From Spirochaetaceae bacterium (GTDB taxonomy: Bacteria > Spirochaetota > Spirochaetia > DSM-27196 > SLAA01), in assembly GCA_003556605.1 (NCBI GenBank), contig PWQX01000097.1:1-38300 (forward strand): a stretch of DNA of 38,300 nucleotides, in the 5' to 3' direction. Positions 5,939 through 18,985 of the stretch are shown here, piece after piece (position 1 is the first letter of the stretch; every line of letters begins with the position of its first letter). The translations under genes were made by a program, and so were the position numbers. The notes under the pieces were generated by a model that saw nothing but the letters and a program-made list of their open reading frames with translations, ran no database searches and had not been told where the DNA came from.

Positions 5939-7309
5939 CTACCGCCGCGCTGACGAGCCGGAGGCTGATTGACGACCCGAACGGGGTTGCGCTTGTGTTT
6001 GCGCTTGGGAATGGCTCGCATGACGGAGCAACCGGGATCGCTGTAACGCCGCGCTCGGCAAGCGCCGGGCACGTGCGCGTTCTCGCACCGCCACTGCGAG
6101 GCCCACAACCGCTACCAGCACGCCCTCCAGACTTCGTGGCGGGTGGTGTGAATGCGGCCAGGTGGAATACAGAATGATGTCCTGCTCCACCGACGAGAAC
6201 GGCCCCCAGCGCTCCCACTCGCCCGCAAAGTACCAGCGTGTGAACGCGGCCCAGCTTTCGCGGGCGCGGCGGTCTATCGCGGGTTCGGGCAAGCGCAACA
6301 GCGCTCCCCGGAATACCGCCATTGCATCCAACCCCAAGCGCTTGGCGACACGGTACGCAACCCGTGCGACGCGCTCGTTATGCGTAAACAGGCACGTGTC
6401 GCCGAACGGCACCTCGATCAAGCGCTGATAGCACTCAGTCCCCGTGATGGCTTCAAAGGCCGTGCGGACGTCGTTGAAATCGGCCCGCGCACGCTCTTCG
6501 CGGGTTTCCGCAGCGTGCGGCTGGCGAATGCGCTGCAGCGCATGCTCCACCAGCTGCTGCACTCCGCCGTGACCTGAAACCAGCGCGGTGAGGTGCTCGG
6601 GCAGGATGCTGGAAATTTTGGACGTTGGATGGAGGATGTAAGTGGTACGCGAGCGCACCGTTGAGCGTACCTGCTCGGCGAAGCGTTCGAGCTCAGCGCC
6701 GGCCTGGTCACCGAGCCGCTCGAGCTCGGTACCGGCCTGCTCGGCCCAGCGCTCAAGCCCGGCACGACTCTCCTCAGCCAGGGTCTGAAGCCGGCCGGCG
6801 AAGCGCCACAGCGCCGAGCTGGAGATCACGAGGTCGATCACCATATACAGCGTCAGACCGCCGGCCACAGTATAAGCAACACGCGGCGGTAACGCCGCGA
6901 TGAACTCTGCGAAAAACGGCCGTATGATCTGCGTCACCACGAACGCGAGGCCGAGCCAGTACACCGAAAAGCGCGGACAGATGTAGCCACCGAGGCTGAA
7001 GCGCTCGTCGGAGTAGTCCCAGAGCATAAGACCGAACAGCCGGTGCATCACCCACCCGGTGACCAGCTCGAGTAACGTAACGGCGAGGGTCATGATTACA
7101 AGCGCAAGCAGATACGGTATACCCGCAAGCGGCACATACAACAGATGAATGATCAGGCCGCCGAACCCGAACACCGGAATAAACGGGCCGAATAGAAACC
7201 CGGAGTTAACCAATCGCCCACGATTCACGGTACGATAGGTGGACTCGATGATCCATCCCAGAAACGCGTAGCCGCCAAAATACAACAGCAGTTCAACGAG
7301 AACATCCAC
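5939..7309 (-). CDS. CmpB-like multi-TM membrane protein fused to a degenerate HD-hydrolase-like C-terminal domain
   Basis: N-terminal LLYFGGYAFLGWIIESTYRTVNRGRLVNSGFLFGPFIPVFGFG typical of the putative ABC permease (CmpB) family; C-terminal HNERVARVAYRVAKRLGLD...EQDIILYSTWP..PPR. Confidence 0.75.
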   Translation of the reverse strand: MDVLVELLLYFGGYAFLGWIIESTYRTVNRGRLVNSGFLFGPFIPVFGFGGLIIHLLYVPLAGIPYLLALVIMTLAVTLLELVTGWVMHRLFGLMLWDYSDERFSLGGYICPRFSVYWLGLAFVVTQIIRPFFAEFIAALPPRVAYTVAGGLTLYMVIDLVISSSALWRFAGRLQTLAEESRAGLERWAEQAGTELERLGDQAGAELERFAEQVRSTVRSRTTYILHPTSKISSILPEHLTALVSGHGGVQQLVEHALQRIRQPHAAETREERARADFNDVRTAFEAITGTECYQRLIEVPFGDTCLFTHNERVARVAYRVAKRLGLDAMAVFRGALLRLPEPAIDRRARESWAAFTRWYFAGEWERWGPFSSVEQDIILYSTWPHSHHPPRSLEGVLVAVVGLAVAVRERARARRLPSAALQRSRLLRHASHSQAQTQAQPRSGRQSASGSSARR

Positions 7310-7363
7310 GACGCATCCGCCTTATCTCAACTTATGTCTGCACAGATATCGATCTCGCATATA

Positions 7364-7393
7364 TTGACGTCACGTTGGATATTTATCAATAAT
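7364..7393 (+). promoter_or_regulatory. candidate sigma70 promoter for amino-acid ABC operon
   Basis: TTGACG - 18 bp - AATAAT upstream of the gene starting at 7432. Confidence 0.4.
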
Positions 7394-7431
7394 GCGCCCA
7401 GCCCCAAGAGCTGAGAAGGAGAGTTCGCTTT

Positions 7432-8190
7432 ATGAAAAAGACGATAACCGTTTTGCTACTGTTCGCGTTCGTCATTGCCTCGCTGTTTGCAGGCGGTGCG
7501 GCCGAGCCCGAAGAGCGCCCGGATAGTATTGTTGTTGCTACCGACGCAACATGGCCCCCCATGGAGTTTCTCGATGAGAACCGCGAGATTGTGGGGTTTG
7601 ATATCGACCTCATGAACGCGATAGCAGCTGCGGCCGGGTTCGAGGTCGAGTTTCGCAACACCGCCTGGGACGGTATCTTCGCCGGCCTCGCCACCGGCGA
7701 GTACGACGCGGTGATCTCTTCGGTAACGATCACCGAAGAGCGAAAGCAGAACATGGATTTCTCAGAGCCCTACATTAACGCAGGTCAGGTGCTGGTCGTC
7801 AGAGTAGACACCAGCGATGTTGAGACGCTCGATGACCTGGTCGGTCAAACCGTCGGTGCGCAGATCGGCACCACCGGCGCTTTTGCAGTCGACGCGGCCG
7901 AGGGCGTTGAGACCGCTACGTACGACGAAATCGGTCTTGCGTTTGAGGATCTCGCCGCCGGACGACTCGCCGGTGTGGTGGCCGACACCCCGGTTGCGGC
8001 AAACTACGCGCTGCAGAACGAGGCCTATGCCGACTCACTGATGATTGTGGGCGAGCCGTTCACCGACGAGTACTACGGCATAGCGCTCCCTCAAGGACGC
8101 GATAAGCTGCTTGAGATGATCAATGATGGTCTTGCGCAGGTGCAAGAGGACGGAACGATTGAAGAGCTCACCGAAAAGTGGCTGAGGTAG
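7432..8190 (+). CDS. polar amino-acid ABC transporter substrate-binding protein
   Basis: Signal peptide ending LFAGGAAEPEE; GFDIDLMNAIAAAAGFEVEFRNTAWDGIFAGLATGEYDAVISSVTIT. Confidence 0.93.
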   Translation: MKKTITVLLLFAFVIASLFAGGAAEPEERPDSIVVATDATWPPMEFLDENREIVGFDIDLMNAIAAAAGFEVEFRNTAWDGIFAGLATGEYDAVISSVTITEERKQNMDFSEPYINAGQVLVVRVDTSDVETLDDLVGQTVGAQIGTTGAFAVDAAEGVETATYDEIGLAFEDLAAGRLAGVVADTPVAANYALQNEAYADSLMIVGEPFTDEYYGIALPQGRDKLLEMINDGLAQVQEDGTIEELTEKWLR

Positions 8191-9017
8191 ATCACAATCC
8201 GCACCCTGAGGTCGCCGCCCCCCGGGCGGCGCCCGCACACCGCATTACGGTAACAGTCAGCGACGGCGCACTGATTCCGGACCGCGGCGAGAAATCGCTG
8301 TTCTCCGCCTGGCGCATATCGTTCTTCGGCGCGATTGCGATGCTCGTCACGCTGCCGATTGTTTCTCCGACTCCCTATCGTGATATCCTCGTTTTCATCC
8401 CTGACGGGGTAGTTACTACCTTCCACGTCACGGTGGTCTCGATCCTGATATCACTCGCGATTGGACTGATCACCGGTCTAGGGCGGATCTCACGGATCAC
8501 TGTGATCAACCGCATCGCGACGATCTACGTGGAGGTGATTCGCGGAATTCCGCTGCTGGTGCAGCTGTTTTACATCTACTTTGCGCTCGGGCAGTTGGTG
8601 CAGGTACCACGTCTGACCGCTGCGATAATTGCGATGTCGGTCTGTTACGGCGCCTATATGGGCGAGATTTTCCGCGCCGGTTTGCAGTCGGTACCGAAAG
8701 GCCAGATGGAGGCCGCGCTGGCGCTCGGCCTCAGCCGAAGGCAGGCGTTACGGAAAGTGATTCTCCCACAAACCTTCCTGGTCATTTTGCCTCCGGTGGG
8801 TAACGAGTTCATTGCGCTTCTCAAGGACTCCTCGCTGGTGTCGATCATCGCGGTCTCGGATCTGCTGCGTCGTGGACGCGAATATGCGGCGGTGAGCTTC
8901 AACTACTTTGAGACCTACACCGTGGTCGCGTTGGTGTACTTGGTGATTACTCTGTTTCTCTCGAAGATTGTAGCGTTTATGGAAACATGGGTGGATAAAC
9001 GTGGCGTACAACCCTGA
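8178..9017 (+). CDS. polar amino-acid ABC transporter permease
   Basis: [66 protein letters not shown] start overlapping upstream gene. Confidence 0.92.
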
Positions 9018-17884: not shown

Positions 17885-18985
17885 ATGAAGTTCACAGTTG
17901 ACCGCGAAACCTTGATGAAAGAGATTGGAGTAGCATCGGAAATCATTTCCAGCAAGAATGCGCTTTCGGTACTTGCAAATGTATTACTATGGGCCGAGGA
18001 AGGTAACCTCGGTATACGTGCTACCGATCTCAAGGTCAGCTTTGAAACCCAGATACCGGTTGAAGTACAGACGCCCGGGAGAACTACCGTATACTGTGAC
18101 AAACTGCTCAGTATTTTACGCTCTCTTCCTGCCGGCGACGTTGAGCTTGAACACGCCCACGACCACATTACGATCACACCTAAAGAACGCGCGGCGGATT
18201 TCCGACTTCGCAGCATCCCGGCGGAAAAGTATCCCGAGATTCAGCTTACAAGTACCATATCGTATTGGGATCTCCCGCAAGCGGAATTCATCGAGATGAT
18301 TACCCAAACAGCATTTGCGGTTTCGGACGATGAAACGCGGTACTTTATGAATGGCGTGTTTTTTGAGCAGGTCGAGGGTGATCTCGTGATGGTTGCAACC
18401 GACGGGCGGCGGTTGTCGTACATTAAGAAAACCCCTGAGAGCGAGCCGCCTGATTTTGCGGGCGTTATTGTGCCGCCGAAGGTCCTTAATTTAGTCAAAA
18501 AACTCGCCTCGGGCGAAGGCACTGTTTCACTGGCTATTACCGAAAAACATCTATTTATCGAGTTCGAGAATCAAAAGCTGTCATCAGCCTTAATTGAAGG
18601 TCAGTTTCCGAACTACCGCCGGGTCATTCCTGAAAAGCAGGATCATGTGCTTACCGTTGACCGCGCACAGCTATCAGAGGCGCTCAAACGCGTTTCGCTG
18701 CTGGTGGATAAGTCACGTCGCGTTTATCTGATGCTTGCTGAAGATTCCGTCACCCTGAGTTGCGACGAATCCGATATCGGAACCGCAAGCGAGCAGTTGG
18801 TATGTTAATATCGCGGGCCGCAGATGCGGATAGCGTTAAACTACCTGTACTTGAGTGAGCCTTTGCGGGTGATAGAGAGCGAGAGCATTGTTCTCAAGTT
18901 TACTGAAGCGAACAAAGCATTGCTCCTCGTACCGACTCCGGAGCAGGATTACTTTCATATTGTAATGCCGATGCAGCTTGACTAA
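17885..18985 (+). CDS. dnaN: DNA polymerase III beta subunit (sliding clamp), interrupted by one in-frame TAA at 18806-18808
   Basis: ORF track stops at 18808, but the same frame continues YRGPQMRIALNYLYLSEPLRVIESESIVLKFTEANKALLLVPTPEQDYFHIVMPMQLD* to 18985, giving the expected 366-residue length and DnaN C-terminus. Confidence 0.93.

Follow-up and report, generated by a model that had tools for sequence, protein, structure and literature searches.

The dnaN gene of this spirochaete draft genome is interrupted by one in-frame TAA, which is very probably a consensus base error of the metagenome assembly, that is, a wrong base in the assembled sequence and not in the cell. We favour this explanation because several unrelated genes of the same draft contain stops that are equally isolated and undecayed, and in the organism itself dnaN is almost certainly a continuous gene of 366 codons. 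The window analysed here (38,300 nucleotides) is an entire contig (C29) of the draft, a metagenome assembly from environmental DNA that comprises 3.88 Mb in 296 contigs, with a completeness of 99.4% and a reported contamination of 4.4%. As judged by DnaN, its nearest named relative is a Spirochaetaceae metagenome bin (80% identical).

The dnaN gene and its internal stop

The gene for the DNA polymerase III beta subunit (sliding clamp) lies at positions 17885..18985 of the forward strand, starts with the ATG at 17885 and ends normally with a TAA at 18983-18985. Its assignment is based on the translation, on 79-84% identity with same-genus dnaN and on Pfam matches which, with the internal stop passed over, cover all three clamp domains of a DnaN protein (PF00712, residues 1-119; PF02767, residues 130-243; PF02768, residues 245-363). 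The assembled reading frame is broken at codon 308 by a TAA (18806..18808, forward strand) followed by a T (TAAT). Beyond it the same frame continues for 58 sense codons (18809..18982, forward strand), which complete clamp domain III and include the MPMQL-D C-terminus. Translation, Pfam and alignment thus bear out the first-pass annotation, which had described a TAA at this codon, the 58 codons behind it and a total length of 366 residues. The PF02768 match spans the stop, and in alignment the protein is collinear with solved beta clamps end to end, through the MPM-L C-terminus. Moreover, the segment downstream of the stop is 76-84% identical to same-genus DnaN, and hence the frame past the stop is not open by chance. 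Apart from the TAA at codon 308, neither a stop nor a frameshift was found within dnaN. If the stop were obeyed, the final 59 residues would be missing from the protein, and with them the closing part of domain III as well as the MPM-L C-terminus. In E. coli, dnaN is essential (PMC4045847).

The gene order around dnaN is gyrA, gyrB, dnaA, dnaN, recF, a DciA-domain gene, rnpA and yidC, the neighbours of dnaN are intact, and the order is collinear with that of same-genus contigs. Elsewhere in the window, positions 5939-9017 hold genes for a CmpB-type ABC transporter protein and for a binding-protein-dependent permease, a stretch apparently absent from the collinear sister contig G002:C298, whose matches are missing over approximately 6.2-9.0 kb.

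Codon 308 in relatives and selection across the stop

The stop is private to this assembly and absent from its close relatives, as is expected of an assembly error. Four same-genus genomes read GAG, GAG, CGG and CGA at codon 308 (E, E, R and R), none of about 105 aligned homologues has a stop there, and a search of 61 genomes for internal stops in dnaN domain III returned only that of the present genome. Residue 308 is variable: K occurs 33 times among the approximately 105 homologues, E 32, R 11, D 10 and Q 7 times, besides others. The earlier proposal that homologues tend to carry an acidic residue is therefore true of the E and D sequences but not of those with K or R, and within the genus the site is divided. 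Likewise, a single substitution such as GAA to TAA is possible; it is not demonstrated, however, as the codons of the closest relatives are GAG or CGR.

Selection on the two sides of the stop is alike. The dN values before and after it, as compared to three full-length same-genus sequences, are 0.11/0.09, 0.11/0.14 and 0.14/0.18, and synonymous sites are saturated in comparison with same-genus dnaN, which together indicate that the region past the stop has been under ordinary constraint until now. The codons past the stop are as well conserved as those ahead of it, and the relaxed selection and extra lesions that mark a pseudogene are not seen. Given this lack of decay, the stop is either false, extremely recent, or read through.

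Isolated stops elsewhere in the draft

Is the dnaN stop exceptional within its own assembly? Approximately 1.1 Mb of this genome was scanned for stops with a strong same-frame coding signal on both sides, using six-frame competition and gene-selected homology, and the candidates were then compared with relatives; a first coding-potential scan and the first homology scans were set aside, as they were flooded by antisense and pre-start artefacts. Besides dnaN, four clean cases were obtained. The only ruvB of the genome contains an in-frame TAG (L156:2048-2050, corresponding to G000 C270:22048-22050) at a position that is Glu in same-genus genomes and Glu or Asp in relatives. The other three stops lie on the reverse strand. 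A TPR-protein gene has an in-frame TAA (L159:285-287, corresponding to G000 C270:80285-80287) where nearly all relatives have Tyr, and a GH2 glycosidase gene has an in-frame TAG (L237:14200-14202, corresponding to C150:14200) in place of Trp or Arg. In a LysM-like gene an in-frame TAA (L193:5271-5273, corresponding to C10:5271) replaces Ala, Val or Glu. All four genes are intact in every same-genus genome in which they were found, and their conservation is equal on both sides of the stop. The count of five is a minimum, as ruvB was caught by the first scan and missed by the stricter one. The first-pass annotation's description of the stop as single consequently holds for dnaN but not for the genome. 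Frameshifts are rare, with one or two weak candidates only, which identifies the isolated stops as substitutions.

Several other candidates were left out of the count. A TctC-like case (L252:2374) lies 16 codons from the gene end, and SDR-like (L244) and SerA-like (L252) degenerate fragments look like pseudogenes. An acyl-CoA ligase gene (L194, G000 C11:1-13253) was omitted because it lies on a low-GC contig and has no close same-genus copy. This contig has a GC content of 0.466 as compared to 0.586, its acyl-CoA ligase gene is broken by one TAA, and it may represent contamination or transferred DNA.

Of the explanations offered at the outset, sequencing or assembly error is thus the best supported. 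We suggest that the TAA would have arisen in the draft as a consensus error of one base (or a few bases), and that the same kind of substitution error probably also struck ruvB and the TPR-protein, GH2 and LysM-like genes. Such an error would escape notice unless it created a stop within a gene that can be recognised, as roughly 1/30 of substitutions do. If all five cases are errors, they imply approximately 1.7e-4 substitutions per base, a rate that would plausibly fit a thinly covered short-read bin. A pure G-to-T damage signature was considered and dropped, since the Tyr site requires another change.

Background rate of isolated stops

Comparison with control samples places these numbers in perspective. 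The same-genus control G002 (0.53 Mb) yielded, as judged by eye, a transposase and an araA-like fragment, which amount to one or two candidates. A further 70 spirochaete loci, comprising 433 kb with homologues, contained one isolated stop, and this again was found in dnaN: in an unrelated Treponema draft (CAMAFU010000003.1, L099:472-474) an independent in-frame TAA sits at a position different from codon 308, at a Ser that nearly all homologues share, some 470 bases away from the end of the contig. The stop rate of the present draft does not differ significantly from that of the control samples (P = 0.3-1). A few isolated stops per megabase hence look like common background in such drafts, and the stop in dnaN caught attention since the gene is well known. 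Then again, a stop rate not significantly above that of the controls means that the draft is not demonstrably poorer than usual, which speaks against the error reading, as does the fact that very recent real nonsense mutations would give an identical sequence pattern.

From the codon usage of this genome, TAA or TAG is the expected product of 82% of nonsense single-base changes, so that five cases without a TGA come as no surprise (probability 0.38 under neutrality). A significant excess of TAA and TAG over TGA was accordingly rejected, the 82% being the neutral expectation itself.

Alternative explanations

But could the stop be real? The first-pass annotation had considered a recent mutation in the presence of a second dnaN copy. 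A second copy was sought, as had been proposed, across the 3.88 Mb draft, using both the C-terminal domain and the full-length protein as queries; none was found, and dnaN is single copy. What survives of the idea is an improbable variant, in which the consensus happened to capture a nonsense mutation of one cell or minor strain, dnaN being intact in other cells. A private stop without decay is what a very young mutation would leave behind, and drafts merge strains, as the reported contamination recalls. However, a clamp without the end of domain III ought to kill a cell that has only this one copy of an essential gene, and such an allele should not rise in frequency. There is no second copy to sustain it, and several unrelated genes, ruvB included, are affected in the same way.

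Readthrough or suppression of a real stop, yielding a full-length clamp, was also proposed; we regard it as very unlikely. It would account for the full purifying selection on the codons past the stop, and the pattern does recur in five sampled genes with TAA or TAG only, but this bias equals the neutral expectation. Furthermore, RF1 (PxT motif PTT) and RF2 (SPF motif) are both intact, without loss or change of a release factor, and no tRNA with a UUA, CUA or UCA anticodon was present among 44 tRNA hits; as a few ordinary tRNAs are missing from the draft, this evidence is strong though short of conclusive. The replaced residues vary from gene to gene, and no relative shares the stop. Finally, the base that follows the stop is U, and in E. 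coli this context is generally held to favour efficient termination. If the stop were nevertheless real and read through, dnaN would be an unusual essential gene dependent on suppression.

The view that global recoding is unlikely, expressed at the outset from the normal ends of other genes, is upheld by 703 sampled genes, which end in TGA (292), TAG (207) or TAA (204). The five internal stops replace E/R (dnaN), E/D (ruvB), Y, W/R and A/V/E, and since these residues differ no single reassignment fits. A recoding of TAA and TAG to Glu, prompted by dnaN and ruvB, was dropped in view of the other residues at the TPR, GH2 and LysM-like sites. An early stage of reassignment, in which the organism tolerates rare UAA and UAG codons in essential genes through leaky termination or a suppressor tRNA that escaped detection, is in our estimation very unlikely.

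Two further possibilities are scarcely credible. A split clamp, with a separate C-terminal piece starting at the in-frame ATG of codon 314 (18824..18826, forward strand), six codons past the stop, is opposed by the absence of a Shine-Dalgarno-like sequence upstream of this ATG, by the presence of the same Met in same-genus DnaN proteins that have no stop, by the position of the break inside domain III, and by the lack of a split gene in any relative. Inactivation of dnaN with another protein acting as clamp found no supporting point and is at odds with the absence of a second DnaN from a draft of this completeness and with the undecayed state of the rest of the gene.

Comparison with known systems

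With the stop passed over, the gene product matches the bacterial sliding clamp DnaN (PF00712, PF02767, PF02768) in all three domains, over its full length and collinearly to the C-terminus, and the dnaA-dnaN-recF order is kept; it differs in the internal TAA at codon 308. With stop-codon reassignment, which has been screened for elsewhere (PMC8629427), the present case shares in-frame stops in conserved genes. It differs in that the stops are rare and replace differing residues, that no matching tRNA was found and both RF1 and RF2 are present, and that normal gene ends use all three stop codons. A lone in-frame stop in a core gene of a metagenome-assembled genome should first be checked against the stop background of the same assembly, before recoding, readthrough or gene loss is concluded from it. 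There is also a likeness with nonsense substitution errors in metagenome-assembled genomes. Judged from the assembled sequence, the present case has in common with such errors that a lone stop sits in a gene with no other damage, that several genes unrelated to one another are hit, that both the stop codons and the replaced residues are mixed, and that the stop is confined to one draft.
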